Assembly (NCBI GenBank): GCA_016288155.1
Contig: JAEEYP010000063.1
Coordinates: 158,124-222,123, forward strand
Direction: 5' to 3'
From: Clostridiales bacterium
GTDB taxonomy: Bacteria > Bacillota > Clostridia > Oscillospirales > CAG-272
DNA length: 64,000 bases
Shown: one piece after another, positions 52,610 through 59,584 of the stretch
How the letters are laid out: each line of letters starts with the position of its first letter
Position numbering within the stretch: position 1 is the stretch's first letter
Translations under genes and position numbers: made by a program
Notes under the pieces: model-generated
The model's database searches: none
Told to the model about the DNA's origin: nothing
Seen by the model: only the letters and a program-made list of their open reading frames with translations

Positions 52610-53248
52610 ATGATCCGCATCGAACGCACCGACGTCATGAATCTCGCCAACGCCATCCGCGGCGCGCGCAATCCGCTCAACAGCTGGGCGCGCAGCGACA
52701 GTGCCTATGACGGGCTCGGTCACTTCGTTCTCGGTCCCGCCGACGTCGATCTCGGACGGCGGCTCGCCCGTTCCGGCAGCGATCACCGGAAATTCCTGCG
52801 CCAGATCTTCGTCTCCGTCGACCTGACGGCGCCGCTTTACTGGTGGAAGGAATTCGATACCTACAAGGTCGGCACCGTCGCCAACTCCTGCTCCACGATG
52901 CACAAGATCCACGCCAAGCCCTTCGAGCGGGACGATTTCAGCCACGACCGCATGAGCGAGGAAGCGCTCTCCTGCCTCGACGGCGTCATCGCCGTGCTTG
53001 AGGAGCGGCGGAAGAAGTATCTGGAAACGAAGGATCGGCAGTACTGGGACGATATGATCCAGCTTTTGCCGAGCTCGTTCAATCAGATGCGCACCTGCAC
53101 GATGAACTACGAGAACCTGACGAACATCTACTACGCCCGCCGGAACCACAAGCTGCCGGAATGGCACGCGCTCTGCGACTGGATCCTTACCCTGCCCTAC
53201 GCCGCGGACTTCATCGCCTGCCGCGAGGAGCCGACGGATCCGCAGTGA
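52610..53248 (+). CDS. ThyX-like (flavin-dependent thymidylate synthase fold) protein lacking the RHR motif
   Basis: GSDHRKFLRQIFVSVDLTAPLYWWKEFDTYKVGTVANSCSTMHK and MIQLLPSSFNQMRTCTMNYENLTNIYYARRNHKLPEWHALCDWI resemble ThyX core segments. Confidence 0.6.
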   Translation: MIRIERTDVMNLANAIRGARNPLNSWARSDSAYDGLGHFVLGPADVDLGRRLARSGSDHRKFLRQIFVSVDLTAPLYWWKEFDTYKVGTVANSCSTMHKIHAKPFERDDFSHDRMSEEALSCLDGVIAVLEERRKKYLETKDRQYWDDMIQLLPSSFNQMRTCTMNYENLTNIYYARRNHKLPEWHALCDWILTLPYAADFIACREEPTDPQ

Positions 53249-53402: not shown

Positions 53403-53430
53403 AGCCCGGGCAGCAGCTCGGGCTTTTTTG
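53403..53430 (+). terminator. intrinsic terminator
   Basis: AGCCCGGGCAGCAGCTCGGGCT followed by TTTTTT. Confidence 0.75.
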
Positions 53431-53467
53431 CCGGTCCAACATTTTGCGCTGTTTTTCTCAGAGGGAC

Positions 53468-53496
53468 TTGACAAAATTCGCGCTTCTGCGTATAAT
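53468..53496 (+). promoter_or_regulatory. promoter of the polyamine operon leader
   Basis: TTGACA-N17-TATAAT (perfect consensus). Confidence 0.9.
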
Positions 53497-53502
53497 AGTA
53501 TA

Positions 53503-53822
53503 CGGATCGAAACTCCGACATAGAGTCTTTCCGAGCGACTTTTACGGACCACCCGTACTCCGGGTCAAGGCCATACGGACAGCCGGGTCCACTGCCGATC
53601 GGCGGTTTTTCCGCCTTATTGATTGAGCGATACCCTGTTTTTATAAGTTGGTTCCTTTATAACCGGAACGCGCAGCACGCTGACTTGTAAACGGTCAATA
53701 AGAGTAGTAAAAGTAATATTTGCTATATAGACTCTGTGTATCGAAATATCTCCGCCTCCCGCTTTGCGGGCGTCTGCGGGGATCCTTGCAAGCCGCGTCT
53801 CGCGGGTTGCATTTTTTGTTTT
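53503..53822 (+). ncRNA. structured leader RNA with intrinsic terminator, upstream of the Orn/Lys/Arg decarboxylase gene; candidate riboswitch/attenuator or stand-alone ncRNA
   Basis: Nested pairs 53518-53528/53729-53739 (11 bp), 53539-53545/53707-53713 (7 bp), 53616-53625/53692-53701 (10 bp with 2 GU); hairpins 53546-53550/53586-53590, 53551-53555/53561-53565, 53601-53605/53611-53615; terminator at 53788-53822. Confidence 0.65.
53788..53822 (+). terminator. leader terminator just upstream of the speA-like RBS
   Basis: GCAAGCCGCG-tct-CGCGGGTTGC (one mismatch) followed by ATTTTTTGTTTTT. Confidence 0.8.
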
Positions 53823-53836
53823 TCGAGGATGAAAAC

Positions 53837-55303
53837 ATGGAATTGGAAAAAGAAGAGACCGTTCTCGACCAGAACCGCGCGCCGATCTACGAGGCGCTGC
53901 AGACGTTCCGGCAGATGCGCGTCGTTCCCTTCGACGTGCCGGGGCACAAACGCGGACGCGGCAATCCGGAATTGACCGCTTTTCTCGGTGAGCGCTGCGT
54001 CGGGATCGACGTCAACAGCATGAAGCCGCTGGACAACCTCTGCCATCCTGTCTCCGTGATCCGTGAAGCGGAACGCCTCGCCGCCGACGCCTTCGGCGCC
54101 GCGTACGCCTTTCTGATGGTCGGCGGCACGACGAGTTCCGTACAGAGCATGGTCCTCTCCACCTGCAAGCGCGGCGACAAGATCATCCTGCCGAGAAACG
54201 TGCACCGGAGCGTCATCAACGCGCTCGTGCTCTGCGGCGCCGTCCCCGTCTACGTGAATCCGGAGGTGGACCGGCGGCTGGGCATTTCCCTTGGGATGCA
54301 GCGGGAACAGGTGGCGCGCGCGATCGCGCAGAATCCGGACGCCGTCGCCGTGCTCGTAAACAATCCGACGTACTACGGCGTATGCAGTGATATACGCGCC
54401 ATCGTACAGATGGCGCACGACGCGAACATGTACTGCCTCGCCGACGAGGCGCACGGCACGCATTTCTACTTCGGTACGGGCATGCCGCTCTCCGCCATGG
54501 AGGCGGGCGCCGACATGGCGGCCGTATCTATGCATAAGAGCGGCGGGAGCCTGACGCAGTCGAGCTTTCTTCTGATCGGTCCGCGCGTCAACGCCGGTCA
54601 CGTCCGCCAGATCATCAATCTGACGCAGACGACCTCCGGCAGTTATCTTCTCATGTCCTCGCTCGACATCAGCCGGCGCAATCTGGCGCTGCGCGGCCGG
54701 GAGATCTTCTCCCGCGTCATGGAAATGGCAGGGTACGCCCGCGAGGAGGTCAACGCGATCGGCGGCTACTACGCCTACGGCAGCGAACTCATCAACGGCA
54801 ATTCCATCTTCAATTTCGATCCGATCAAGCTGAGCGTACACACGCGCGACATCGGTCTTGCCGGGATCGAGGTCTACGACATACTGCGCGACGAGTACGA
54901 CATCCAGATCGAATTCGGCGACATCGGCAACATCCTCGCCTACCTCTCCATCGGCGACCGGCCGCAGGAGGTGGAGCGCCTCGTCAGCGCCCTCGCCGAG
55001 ATCCGCCGCCGTTATCAGAAGGATTCGAGCGGTCTGCTCAGTCAGGAATATATCGATCCCGTCGTCGTCACGAGCCCGCAGGAAGCGTTCTACGCCAAAA
55101 AACGGAGCCTCCCGCTCCGCGAGAGCGTCGGCTGCGTGTGCAGCGAATTCGTCATGTGCTATCCGCCGGGGATCCCGATCCTCGCTCCGGGCGAAAAGAT
55201 CACGAAGGAGATCCTCGACTATATCGAATACGCAAAGGTCAAGGGCTGCTCCATGACCGGTCCGGAAGATCCGGACATCCTCCGTCTGAACGTACTGGAA
55301 TAA
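53837..55303 (+). CDS. Orn/Lys/Arg decarboxylase (fold I PLP), probable arginine decarboxylase
   Basis: VPFDVPGHKRGRGNPEL, ADEAHGTHFYFG, VSMHKSGGSLTQSSFLL (PLP Lys); first gene of an operon with speE and speB homologs. Confidence 0.92.
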   Translation: MELEKEETVLDQNRAPIYEALQTFRQMRVVPFDVPGHKRGRGNPELTAFLGERCVGIDVNSMKPLDNLCHPVSVIREAERLAADAFGAAYAFLMVGGTTSSVQSMVLSTCKRGDKIILPRNVHRSVINALVLCGAVPVYVNPEVDRRLGISLGMQREQVARAIAQNPDAVAVLVNNPTYYGVCSDIRAIVQMAHDANMYCLADEAHGTHFYFGTGMPLSAMEAGADMAAVSMHKSGGSLTQSSFLLIGPRVNAGHVRQIINLTQTTSGSYLLMSSLDISRRNLALRGREIFSRVMEMAGYAREEVNAIGGYYAYGSELINGNSIFNFDPIKLSVHTRDIGLAGIEVYDILRDEYDIQIEFGDIGNILAYLSIGDRPQEVERLVSALAEIRRRYQKDSSGLLSQEYIDPVVVTSPQEAFYAKKRSLPLRESVGCVCSEFVMCYPPGIPILAPGEKITKEILDYIEYAKVKGCSMTGPEDPDILRLNVLE

Positions 55304-55316
55304 GGAGGCGACCGCA

Positions 55317-56189
55317 TTGGAACTGTGGTTCAGTGAATTTCACGCGCCGGACGTCAAGCACAGCATCCGCGTCAACCGGCATCTGTATTCCCAGAAGAGC
55401 GACTATCAGCAGATCGACATTTTCGATACGCCGGAATTCGGGCGCGTGCTCGCACTCGACGGAAACGTGCAGCTCACGGAGCGCGACGAATTCATCTACG
55501 ACGAAATGATTACCCACGTGCCGATGGCGGTGCATCCGGCGATCAGCGACATCCTTGTCATCGGCGCCGGCGACGGCGGCGTCGTCAAGGAACTGGCGCG
55601 CTACGATCAGGTACGGCGGATCGACCTCGTAGAGATGGATCCGGACGTGGTCAAGGCGTGCCGTACGTACCTGCCGGAGAACGCGAGCCGTCTTGACGAC
55701 TCACGCGTACACATCTATTATGACAATGCCCTGCGCTTCATCCGCCGCTGCACGGAGCAGTACGATCTCATCATCGTCGATTCCACCGATCCGTTCGGTC
55801 CGTCGGAAGGGTATTTCACCCGGGAGTTCTACGGTATCTGCTACAACGCCCTCCGCGAGGACGGCATCATGGTCAACCAGCAGGGCAGCCCGTTCTACCA
55901 GCACGACGCGGAAGCGATGCAGCGCAGCCACAAGCGCATCGTCAGCACGTTCCCGATCAGCCGCGTGTATCAGGCGCATATCCCCACCTACGCCGCCGGG
56001 TACTGGCTCTTCGGTTTCGCCAGCAAGAAATACCATCCCGTGGACGATCTCGACACGGCGCGCTGGCTGTCGCTCAATCTGCAGACGAAATACTACACGA
56101 CGAAGCTTCACGTCGGCGCGTTCTATCTGCCCGCGTTTCTTGAGCGGATGCTGGAGGAGGTGGAGCAGTCCGATGCAGCCAAACGTTGA
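55317..56189 (+). CDS. speE: polyamine aminopropyltransferase (spermidine synthase)
   Basis: DEFIYDEMITHVPMAVHP, VIGAGDGGVVKELARY, IIVDSTDPFGPSEGYFTREFY; TTG start after AAGGAGG. Confidence 0.95.
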   Translation: MELWFSEFHAPDVKHSIRVNRHLYSQKSDYQQIDIFDTPEFGRVLALDGNVQLTERDEFIYDEMITHVPMAVHPAISDILVIGAGDGGVVKELARYDQVRRIDLVEMDPDVVKACRTYLPENASRLDDSRVHIYYDNALRFIRRCTEQYDLIIVDSTDPFGPSEGYFTREFYGICYNALREDGIMVNQQGSPFYQHDAEAMQRSHKRIVSTFPISRVYQAHIPTYAAGYWLFGFASKKYHPVDDLDTARWLSLNLQTKYYTTKLHVGAFYLPAFLERMLEEVEQSDAAKR

Positions 56190-57027
56190 GACATTCCTCG
56201 GATGCGCCGCTTCTTATGAAGAATCGACCGACGTCCTGTTCGGCGCGCCGTTCGATTCCACGACGAGTTTCCGTCCCGGTGCACGTTTCGGTCCCGCCGC
56301 CATGCGTCATGAGAGCTTCGGGCTGGAAACGTACAGCCCGTATCAGGATCGGGATCTGACCGACTGCCGCATCTTCGACTGCGGAGATCTTGAACTCTGT
56401 TTTGGATCTTCGGAATCGGCGCTCGCCGACGTCGAGGCGCGCACGGAGGAGATCCTCGCGGACGTAAAACGTCCGATCCTCCTCGGCGGCGAACATCTGG
56501 TGACGCTCGGCGCGCTGCGTGCCGCCGTCCGCCGCTTTCCCGATCTGCATATCCTTCACTTCGACGCGCACGCCGATCTGCGGGACGACTATCTCGGCGC
56601 ACGCCTCAGCCACGCCTGCGTGATGCGCCGCGCCCACGAGCTCGTCGGTGACGGCAGGATCCATCAGTTCTGCATCCGTTCGGGCGAGCGGGAAGAATTC
56701 CGCTTCGCCGCCGCCCACACGGATATGCATCGTTTTTCCTTCGACGGGCTCGCCGAGACGATCGCGCGGATCATCGAATGCGGCGCGCCCGTATATCTGA
56801 CGATCGATCTCGACTGCCTCGATCCCTCCGTTTTGCCGGGTACCGGCACGCCGGAAGCAGGCGGCGTCCGTTTTCCGGAGCTGCTCGAAGCGATTCTTCT
56901 CGCCGCCCGACCGCGCGTCGTCGCGGCTGACGTGAACGAGCTTGCGCCGATGTTGGACGCAAGCGGCGCGTCGACCGCCGTCGCCTGCAAGGTACTGCGC
57001 GAGCTTTTGCTCGCGCTGCAGGGCTGA
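56173..57027 (+). CDS. speB: agmatinase (ureohydrolase family)
   Basis: GGEHLVTLGALRAA, ILHFDAHADLRDDY, LSHACVMRRA, LTIDLDCLDPSVLPGTGTPE. Confidence 0.93.
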   Translation: MQPNVETFLGCAASYEESTDVLFGAPFDSTTSFRPGARFGPAAMRHESFGLETYSPYQDRDLTDCRIFDCGDLELCFGSSESALADVEARTEEILADVKRPILLGGEHLVTLGALRAAVRRFPDLHILHFDAHADLRDDYLGARLSHACVMRRAHELVGDGRIHQFCIRSGEREEFRFAAAHTDMHRFSFDGLAETIARIIECGAPVYLTIDLDCLDPSVLPGTGTPEAGGVRFPELLEAILLAARPRVVAADVNELAPMLDASGASTAVACKVLRELLLALQG

Positions 57028-57074: not shown

Positions 57075-58334
57075 ATGAGCAGAGTTTTGGTCATCGGGTG
57101 CGGGGGCGTCGCCTCCGTCGCCATCCGCAAGTGCTGCCAGCATCCCGAGGTCTTCACGGAATTGTGCATCGCCAGCCGCACGAAATCGAAGTGCGACGCG
57201 CTCGCCGCCGCGCTGAAGGACAAAACGACCACCAGGATCACGACGGCACAGGTGAATGCGGACGACGTCGATCAGCTGATCTCGCTCATCCGCGCGTACA
57301 AGCCGGAGCTCGTCATGAACATCGCTCTTCCCTATCAGGATCTGACGATCATGGACGCCTGCCTCGCCTGCGGCGTGAACTATATGGACACCGCCAACTA
57401 CGAACCGGAGGACACCGACGATCCCGCATGGCGCGCGATCTATGAAAAGCGCTGTCGGGAGAAGGGCTTCTCCGCCTATTTTGATTACAGCTGGCAGTGG
57501 GCGTACCGCGAAAAATTCGAGCAAGCCGGTCTGACCGCCCTGCTCGGCTGCGGCTTCGACCCCGGCGTGACGCAGGCGTACTGCGCCTATGCGAAAAAGC
57601 ATGAATTCGACGAGATCGATACGATCGATATCCTCGACTGCAACGGCGGCGACCACGGCTATCCTTTCGCCACGAACTTCAATCCCGAAGTGAATCTGCG
57701 CGAGGTCTCGGCACCCGGTTCCTACTGGGAGGACGGGCACTGGATCGAGATCCCGGCGATGAGCATCAAGCGCGAATACGATTTCGACGCGGTGGGTCCG
57801 AAGGACATGTACCTGCTCCATCACGAGGAGATCGAATCGCTCGCCGTCAATATCCCCGAGGTGAAGCGCATCCGCTTCTTCATGACCTTCGGTCAAAGCT
57901 ATCTCACGCACATGAAGTGCCTCGAGAACGTCGGTATGCTCTCCACCGTTCCCGTTCTTTTCGAAGGACACGAGATCGTCCCGATCAAATTCCTCAAAGC
58001 GCTCCTTCCCGATCCGGCAAGCCTCGGTCCGCGTACGCACGGCAAAACGAACATCGGCTGCATCTTCACCGGACGCAAGAACGGTGAGGAAAAAACGTAC
58101 TACATCTATAACGTCTGCGACCATCAGGAATGCTACCGCGAAGTGGAAAGCCAGGCGATCAGCTACACGACCGGCGTTCCGGCGATGTGCGGCGCGCTCA
58201 TGCTCCTCACCGGGAAGTGGACCGCCAAAGGCGTGCACACCGTGGAGGAATTCGATCCGGATCCTTTCCTCGACGCGCTGGACAAATACGGTCTGCCTCG
58301 CCGCGAGAACCGCGCGCCGTCCCTCGTCGAATGA
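57075..58334 (+). CDS. saccharopine dehydrogenase-family protein, probable carboxynorspermidine/carboxyspermidine dehydrogenase
   Basis: RVLVIGCGGVASVAIRKCCQ, NYMDTANYEPEDT, YSWQWAYREKFEQAGLTALLGCGFDPGVTQAYCAYA; followed by an NspC homolog. Confidence 0.92.
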   Translation: MSRVLVIGCGGVASVAIRKCCQHPEVFTELCIASRTKSKCDALAAALKDKTTTRITTAQVNADDVDQLISLIRAYKPELVMNIALPYQDLTIMDACLACGVNYMDTANYEPEDTDDPAWRAIYEKRCREKGFSAYFDYSWQWAYREKFEQAGLTALLGCGFDPGVTQAYCAYAKKHEFDEIDTIDILDCNGGDHGYPFATNFNPEVNLREVSAPGSYWEDGHWIEIPAMSIKREYDFDAVGPKDMYLLHHEEIESLAVNIPEVKRIRFFMTFGQSYLTHMKCLENVGMLSTVPVLFEGHEIVPIKFLKALLPDPASLGPRTHGKTNIGCIFTGRKNGEEKTYYIYNVCDHQECYREVESQAISYTTGVPAMCGALMLLTGKWTAKGVHTVEEFDPDPFLDALDKYGLPRRENRAPSLVE

Positions 58335-59584
58335 CCGCACCGACCGAGACGCGCGCCGCCTTCGCGGCGCTGAATGGAAACACCCCCGAGGAACTTTTCG
58401 GCGCGCTGCCGACGCCGTGCTATATCCTCGACGAAGCGCAGCTTTCACGCAACGCCGCGGTCCTCGACGGGATCCGCCGCCGCACCGGGTGCCGCATCCT
58501 CCTCGCGCAGAAGGCGTTCTCCAACTTCGATCTCTACCCCGCCCTCGCCCCGGCGCTCGACGGGACGGAGGCGAGCGGTCTATTCGAGGCGCGCCTCGGA
58601 CGCGAAGCGATGCCGGAGGGCGAGGTACACGTTTTCTCCGCCGCTTACCGCGCCGCGGATATCCCCGAAGTGCTCCGTTACGCCGATCATATCGTTTTCA
58701 ACTCTCCGCGTCAGCTTTCGCTGTACGGCGAGGCAGCGTGCGCGGCCGGATGCAGCATCGGACTGCGGATCAATCCGGAATGCTCCACACAGGAAGGTCA
58801 CGCGATCTACGATCCCTGCGCGCCGGGCAGCCGTCTCGGTACGACCCGCGCCCAGTGGGATGCGGAAATGACGCCCGCGCTCATCGCCCTCCTCGACGGA
58901 CTTCATTTTCACACGCTGTGTGAACAGGATTCCGACGCGCTTGAGACGACGCTCTCCGCTGTGGAAGAAAAATTCGGCGGCGTACTGCTGCGTATGAAGT
59001 GGCTGAACATGGGAGGCGGACATCATATCACCCGCCCGGGCTACGATATCGCGCGCCTCGAGAGGTGCATCCGGCGCGCGCAGACAGCGTGGAACGTGAC
59101 CGTCTATCTGGAGCCCGGCGAGGCGTGTGCTCTCAACGCCGGATTTCTCGCTTCCCGCGTACTCGACGTGCGAAAGAACGGTGATACGAATATCGCGATC
59201 CTCGACGCCAGCGCCGCCTGTCACATGCCGGACGTGCTTGAGATGCCGTACACGCCGCCGCTCTGGAGCGCCGCGGAACCTGGCATGCTTCCCTGTACGT
59301 TCCGCCTCGGCGGACCCACCTGCCTTGCGGGCGACGTCATAGGAGAATACGCCTTTCCCGCTCCGCTGAAAGAGGGGGATCTTCTCCTGTTCGGAGATAT
59401 GGCGATCTATACGACCTGCAAGAACAATACCTTCAACGGCATGCCGCTGCCCGATATATACCGCCGCGGCGCCGACGGAGCCCTGACGCCTTTGACGCAC
59501 TTCGGATACGAGGACTTCAAGGGTCGGCTCGGTACACGGGAGCAGCCCCATTTTCATCGAAAAGGAACTGCGAATCATGGATAA
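58331..59584 (+). CDS. nspC: carboxynorspermidine/carboxyspermidine decarboxylase
   Basis: PTPCYILDEAQLSRNAAVLDGIRRRTGCRILLAQKAFSNF, LGTT, HFHTLCEQDSDALE, LNMGGGHHITRPGYD, YLEPGEA; ATGA overlap with the previous gene. Confidence 0.95.
   Translation: MTAPTETRAAFAALNGNTPEELFGALPTPCYILDEAQLSRNAAVLDGIRRRTGCRILLAQKAFSNFDLYPALAPALDGTEASGLFEARLGREAMPEGEVHVFSAAYRAADIPEVLRYADHIVFNSPRQLSLYGEAACAAGCSIGLRINPECSTQEGHAIYDPCAPGSRLGTTRAQWDAEMTPALIALLDGLHFHTLCEQDSDALETTLSAVEEKFGGVLLRMKWLNMGGGHHITRPGYDIARLERCIRRAQTAWNVTVYLEPGEACALNAGFLASRVLDVRKNGDTNIAILDASAACHMPDVLEMPYTPPLWSAAEPGMLPCTFRLGGPTCLAGDVIGEYAFPAPLKEGDLLLFGDMAIYTTCKNNTFNGMPLPDIYRRGADGALTPLTHFGYEDFKGRLGTREQPHFHRKGTANHG

Follow-up and report, generated by a model that had tools for sequence, protein, structure and literature searches.

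The window analysed here is a stretch of 64,000 nucleotides from a Clostridiales bacterium, and the promoter, the leader and the operon described below lie on its forward (+) strand. A promoter of the sigma-70/A type is located at positions 53468-53496, with the -35 element TTGACA (53468-53473) and the -10 element TATAAT (53491-53496) separated by a spacer of 17 nucleotides, the perfect match noted in a preliminary description of this DNA. It is followed by a leader of ~330 nt (53497-53836) that contains no ORF with an ATG or GTG start. The ORFs with TTG starts are at most 23 codons long and none of them has a Shine-Dalgarno sequence, so the earlier statement that this segment lacks a convincing ORF is upheld. 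The minimum free energy (MFE) of the leader is -118.2 kcal/mol, compared to -98.1 ± 6.1 kcal/mol for shuffled sequences (z = -3.3; one of 100 shuffles does as well). The ribosome-binding site GAGGA (53825-53829) is found where it had been placed, after the U-run of an intrinsic terminator and before the ATG of the first gene at 53837.

The leader is followed by five genes in the order speA-speE-speB-CASDH-CASDC. The first encodes a SpeA-like Orn/Lys/Arg decarboxylase (PF01276, 53837-55303), the second the polyamine aminopropyltransferase SpeE (55317-56189; NF002010, 363 bits against a cut-off of 260), and the third the agmatinase SpeB (56173-57027; TIGR01230, 270 bits against a cut-off of 174). 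The last two encode a carboxynorspermidine synthase-like protein (CASDH, 57075-58334), which scores 406 bits with NF043000, under the cut-off of 800, and a carboxynorspermidine decarboxylase-like protein (CASDC, nspC, 58325-59584), which scores 394 bits with TIGR01047, slightly under the cut-off of 409. S-adenosylmethionine decarboxylase (SpeD, PF02675) was not detected in the genome assembly of the window, which is 95% complete; SpeE is encoded although a PF02675 match is absent from the same assembly. Upstream of the leader, a protein of 212 amino acids (52610-53248) has no Pfam or NCBIfam match. A GC-rich hairpin followed by a T-run (AAGCCCGGGCAGCAGCUCGGGCUUUUUU, 53405-53431) is located just 5' of the promoter and presumably terminates the gene before it.

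A search against Rfam finds one family in the leader. RF02440 (SpF59_sRNA, also ldcC RNA) matches positions 53546-53598 over its entire length (model positions 1-54 of 54) with 68 bits, compared to a gathering score of 37.2, and at E-values of up to 10 the leader has no match to any other Rfam family. The preliminary description had recognized no known riboswitch. This is correct with regard to the T-box, lysine, SAM and AdoCbl classes, none of which has a match, but RF02440 had been overlooked. The novelty of the RNA is partly removed by this match to a known family, but the family covers only 54 nt, is labeled an sRNA and carries no function.

RF02440 ties the element to streptococci and Lactococcus. 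The family originates from an sRNA survey of the pneumococcus. In Streptococcus pneumoniae, F59 sits between SP0915 and SP0916 (PMC3395615), the latter a gene that was subsequently reported to be an arginine decarboxylase (PMC7531197). The same RNA, named srn235, F59 or Spd_sr49, is placed by a 2025 compilation at positions 869478-869804 of strain TIGR4, a length of 327 nt (PMC12323649), which is close to that of the terminated leader. By full-length match, the pneumococcal RNA known as F59, srn235, SN20 and Spd_sr49, the alias set of RF02440, is the same RNA as the leader in the window. No description of the full element or of its function was found in the literature on SpF59, srn235, ldcC RNA and RF02440, with subscription journals incompletely covered, and the full element is also absent from the ncRNA surveys examined for polyamine terms.

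Eighty relatives were collected through the SpeA protein, and most of them have the conserved core ~350 nt 5' of speA. Two covariance models were used, a full model with 219 positions (R1) and a model of the 54-nt 3' core (R2). R1 aligns to positions 53525-53735 of the window with a score of 190 bits (E = 1.8e-46), the window being also among its training sequences. Whole-genome scans covered 196 genomes of the class, 197 of the order and 399 of the phylum, all in the phylum of the window. RF02440 was found in 22, 44 and 18 of these genomes, respectively, with one copy each. R1 was found in 27 of the class genomes and 25 of the phylum genomes, compared to 22 and 18 for RF02440; for R2 the count in the phylum set is likewise 25, plus one marginal match. 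The RNA is present as a single copy, and it is seen in numerous families of Clostridia from gut and rumen as well as in further families of the phylum sampled.

The conserved structure was analysed on two MAFFT alignments (A1 and A2), of which A1 contains 60 leaders. The conservation in A1 spans ~210 nt and extends well past the Rfam segment. Ten helices were counted (P2, P3, P3b, P4, P5, P6, P7, P8, P9 and Px), and 92.2% of their cells are paired. Double changes are observed in 30 of the 61 base pairs, some of the covarying pairs being in gap-rich regions of the alignment. The number of cells with double changes is 238, compared to 84 ± 10 after shuffling, which leaves the relatedness of the sequences partly in place. 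The covariation score is 0.203, compared to 0.108 for the shuffled alignments (none of 500 reaches the observed value) and 0.04-0.07 for slid controls. RNAalifold independently recovers P3, P3b, P5, P6, P7 and Px.

The 5' part of the element contains helix P2, formed by 53534-53538 with 53720-53724 and showing compensatory changes in the alignment, and the segment recognized by Rfam, which includes helix P3 (53546-53550/53586-53590), helix P3b (53551-53555/53561-53565, with covariation in all five pairs) and the conserved loop AAGGCCAUACGGACAGCC (within 53546-53598). Hairpin P4 (53601-53615) follows, and all six of its pairs change on both sides. Helix P5 (53616-53623/53694-53701) is almost invariant in sequence, with 98% of its cells paired, and is also predicted by RNAalifold. 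It encloses P6, which is degenerate in the window, together with P7, P8 and P9. Helix P7 (53639-53692), found both in the covariation count and by RNAalifold, pairs UUUUAUAAGU (53639-53648) with ACUUGUAAA (53683-53691), and hairpins P8 (53650-53664) and P9 (53669-53680) are inside it. Helix Px pairs GAGU (53702-53705) with ACUC (53731-53734). It is recovered by RNAalifold and covaries in separate lineages, to GAGC/GCUC and to GCGU/ACGC. The 3' strand of P2 sits inside the loop of Px, and P2 and Px consequently form a pseudoknot. The most conserved part of the RNA is the 3' core described by R2 (ACUUGU..GGUCAAUAAGAGUAGUAAAAGU..UUGCUAUAUAGACUCU, 53683-53735; 78.5 bits), and long stretches that are unpaired in the model are almost invariant across many families.

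The region just 5' of P2 (P0, 53503-53533) has a weak CGGA/UCCG stem in the window, with the motif AGAGUCU in its loop. The MFE of this region is -6.9 kcal/mol, compared to -5.5 kcal/mol for shuffles; individual cases are clear, but with so small a gain P0 was dropped as a firm consensus hairpin. The first helix proposed by RNAalifold, ACUGCC/GAGUAGU, was also rejected, because it occupies the strand of Px and is broken in the potA and speD types of leaders. A possible outer helix, pairing the linker past Px with the 5' end, is weakly above chance (53% compared to 37% expected).

All three long stems of the preliminary description are present in the predicted fold of the window, but the comparative data split them. 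The 10-bp stem (53616-53625/53692-53701) corresponds to P5, which is conserved. No consensus helix corresponds to the 7-bp stem (53539-53545/53707-53713), whose conserved neighbor is P2. Many relatives, but not all, also have the 11-bp stem (53518-53528/53729-53739), with at least six pairs possible at this site in 71 of 86 leaders compared to 44% of shuffles. It is a rival of the better-supported Px, with which it shares the 3' strand. The AGACUCU strand at the 3' end (53717-53735) has Px GAGU as a partner in all lineages or the AGAGUCU loop near the 5' end (53518-53528) in many Clostridia. These two pairings are mutually exclusive and could represent an extra switch layer.

The segment covered by RF02440 is missing from some relatives. 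Several leaders (L010, L015, L016 and L017) lack P3 and P4 and hence this segment. Two minimal members in front of speD, L175:1500-1605 and L174:1534-1760, are reduced to P2, Px and the 3' core; the former, at ~106 nt, retains P2, Px and ACUUGUGAAAC...AAUAAGAGUAGUAAAAGU. They are good candidates for biochemistry and crystallography. As relatives drop P3/P4 yet keep the 3' core, the Rfam segment is, by this sequence comparison, peripheral, and the 3' core appears to be the heart of the RNA. RF02440 therefore models 54 nt of a peripheral domain, without the 3' core, the pseudoknot, the antiterminator described below or the association with polyamine genes. Instead of a short stand-alone sRNA, we find covariation over ~210 nt and conservation that reaches the terminator.

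The intrinsic terminator, previously placed at 53788-53822, is real and occupies 53787-53823. It consists of a hairpin (53787-53811, -15.5 kcal/mol) and a U-run (53812-53823, T6GT5 in the DNA). A strong terminator, defined as one of -9 kcal/mol or lower within 200 nt 3' of Px, is present in 120 of 133 distinct leaders but in only 8 of 133 coding stretches from the same loci.

A blind scan, in which each 10-nt segment of the RNA was compared with the region of the terminator 5' arm in 57 leaders and judged against shuffles, shows a unique peak of complementarity. This peak is the 3' strand of P7, ACUUGUGAAA, with a mean z of -2.24, while the remaining profile is around 0 with a standard deviation of 0.45. 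The P7 strand matches the terminator of its own leader better than swapped ones, as only 6 of 5000 permutations, which leave relatedness partly in, are as good. In leaders with the variant ACUUGUAAAA, the partner is, for example, UUUUACAAG, UUUUGCAAG or UUUUACAGG, and in those with ACUUGUAAA the partners are the U-rich UUUUAC/UUGC. Among 42 held-out leaders outside the earlier terminator set, 81% have at least six antiterminator pairs, compared to 33% after shuffling, and 50% have at least seven, compared to 10%. In the window, the two strands of the antiterminator identified by the scan and the swap test are CUUGUAA (53684-53690), in P7, where the held-out leaders also support it, and UUGCAAG (53786-53792). 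The latter overlaps the 5' arm of the terminator and the former is the 3' strand of P7, and as a result the predicted state with P7 and the terminator and the predicted antiterminator state exclude each other. The 5' strand of P7 (UUAUAAG, in the region 53639-53664) could pair with CUUUAUAA in the region of P8 when the antiterminator holds its partner, a possible alternative hairpin.

The genes located 3' of the leaders belong mostly to one pathway. The first gene after the 133 distinct leaders is speA in 84 cases, speD in 31, potA in 10, CASDH in 7 and another gene in 1. In all 31 of the speD leaders, speA is found at most 1.4 kb further on. A subset of 61 leaders was found by the RNA models alone, and is free of the bias of the SpeA search; polyamine genes (speD-speA, speA, potA or CASDH) follow 60 of them. 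The gene identities are based on TIGR03331 for SpeD, NF043075 and TIGR01187 for PotA, and NF043000 for CASDH, with scores under the cut-off for the last, as well as on Pfam. The counted downstream genes include no regulator gene that accompanies the leader. The ten potA leaders (L082-L142) are a distinct subtype, which tends to have an extra hairpin between GCCGA and P4, and in several of them the loop of Px is shortened (GAGUACGCGUAA...). A divergent copy (L136:1501-1713) precedes a peptidase-like gene, of the M28 type as judged by eye, and shows weak antiterminator complementarity.

The preliminary description had left a choice between an attenuator in cis and a stand-alone ncRNA with its own terminator, and had named covariation and synteny as the observations to separate them. 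Both are present (30 of 61 pairs; 132 of 133 leaders before polyamine genes). Together with the conserved terminator and antiterminator, they strongly support a cis-acting attenuator leader for the polyamine operon, and a stand-alone ncRNA is weakened since polyamine genes follow 132 of the 133 leaders. The sequence evidence thus combines a covarying structure in a 5' leader, association with the genes of one pathway, and mutually exclusive terminator and antiterminator pairings, as looked for in riboswitches. By its score the leader belongs to RF02440, and on the present evidence it would work like a transcription-terminating riboswitch; the label of a stand-alone sRNA does not fit.

We consider it probable that the leader is a polyamine riboswitch, with spermidine as the likeliest ligand, which turns the operon OFF by transcription attenuation. 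We infer that the RNA binds a small molecule directly, that this molecule is a polyamine, either spermidine or a close relative of it, and that the terminated state is the one favored by binding. Spermidine or polyamine is what we take, from pathway knowledge, to be the product or cargo common to speA, speD, potA and CASDH; the ligand is assigned on this ground, as it is the sole pool shared by all four gene types. The sign of control is based on the logic of product feedback and on analogy to the known spermidine switch (PMC10853860).

In the proposed mechanism, the aptamer of ~210 nt would fold co-transcriptionally around the conserved 3' core with its pseudoknot of P2 and Px. At high polyamine levels, the fold with bound ligand would hold the 3' strand of P7 in the aptamer, the terminator would form, and transcription would stop before speA. 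At low levels, P7 would open and its 3' strand would capture the 5' arm of the terminator, and formation of the antiterminator would allow read-through and turn the operon ON. Folding of the full leader of the window favors the terminator state by 12.8 kcal/mol over a forced antiterminator state. Such an energy preference is usual for kinetic OFF switches but is no evidence of read-through, and with a bias of ~13 kcal/mol the decision would be kinetic.

The same riboswitch design could respond to putrescine, cadaverine, agmatine, arginine or decarboxylated SAM, or to the general level of cations or polyamines, and speA is the commonest first gene (84 of 133), which makes the substrate or product of SpeA a candidate for what is sensed. 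However, the leaders before potA, a spermidine/putrescine importer, and before speD and CASDH have only spermidine/polyamine in common, and decarboxylated SAM is unlikely in the genome of the window because no speD is detectable there. We regard a different ligand as unlikely, the least so of the alternatives considered here. The choice between P7 and the antiterminator might instead depend on an RNA-binding protein or on the state of the ribosome or RNA polymerase. The evidence for the terminator and antiterminator is silent on the sensor, and the leader exceeds most riboswitches in length. On the other hand, no regulator gene accompanies the leader among the counted downstream genes, and the near-invariant unpaired stretches and the pseudoknotted core are as expected of a ligand pocket. 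A ribosome-mediated mechanism would, moreover, require an upstream ORF, and a peptide-leader attenuator was rejected on the basis of the ORF content given above. A protein or ribosome sensor is improbable in our assessment.

A role mainly as a trans-acting sRNA, comparable to SpF59/srn235, with its own terminator and with the operon reached by read-through, would agree with the label in Rfam and in the pneumococcal literature (PMC3395615, PMC12323649), and a terminated leader would indeed appear as a discrete RNA, as the 327 nt of srn235 illustrate. Against this, polyamine genes come directly after nearly all the leaders found from the RNA models alone, the partner genes vary while the pathway is constant, and the 5' arm of the terminator stays complementary to the 3' strand of P7, which would be needless for an sRNA acting in trans. 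We find this explanation very improbable.

Compared to the known systems, a polyamine riboswitch in the window would be distinct. The spermidine riboswitch already described is a variant of the SAM-I aptamer with a four-stem fold and 13 known examples; like the leader studied here, it is located in Gram-positive bacteria before the genes speE, speB and ldcC and is an OFF switch with a terminator and antiterminator (PMC10853860). Its architecture, helix order and sequence are, however, unrelated to those of the leader, in which no SAM-clan match is found up to E = 10. The speF leader (RF00518) and the odc1 motif also precede genes for polyamine-forming decarboxylases and control termination. 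The speF leaders are proteobacterial, and RF00518 has no Rfam match in the leader of the window. The odc1 motif is a uORF element (PMC8632094), whereas no ATG or GTG uORF is present here. Lysine, T-box and AdoCbl riboswitches are likewise large leaders of Firmicutes, comparable in size, with a multibranch aptamer and a terminator-type platform, and are separated from this leader by the absence of Rfam matches. With somewhat better than even confidence, we propose that the RNA represents a widespread and unrecognized class of spermidine riboswitches, unlike the SAM-I variant, with a pseudoknotted core of ~55 nt, a dispensable periphery and a P7 strand that switches to the antiterminator, and that SpF59 is a fragment of it.

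Polyamines are among the most abundant metabolites of cells. To our knowledge, the SAM-I variant is the only well-proven polyamine riboswitch, and it is rare. The discoverers of the spermidine riboswitch expect further classes (PMC10853860). The fragment in RF02440 was already known, and the 3' core, the pseudoknot, the antiterminator and the link to polyamine genes go beyond Rfam. The two-state model is concrete and the mutations that would test it are defined. If it is correct, the RNA would serve naturally as a feedback sensor of both the synthesis and the import of polyamines. In the pneumococcus, transposon mutants of srn235 have a fitness of 0.05 in the lung (PMC3395615). The present analysis suggests that this 'virulence sRNA' may be the cis-regulatory leader of a polyamine operon, in which case its mutants may act via the supply of polyamines.
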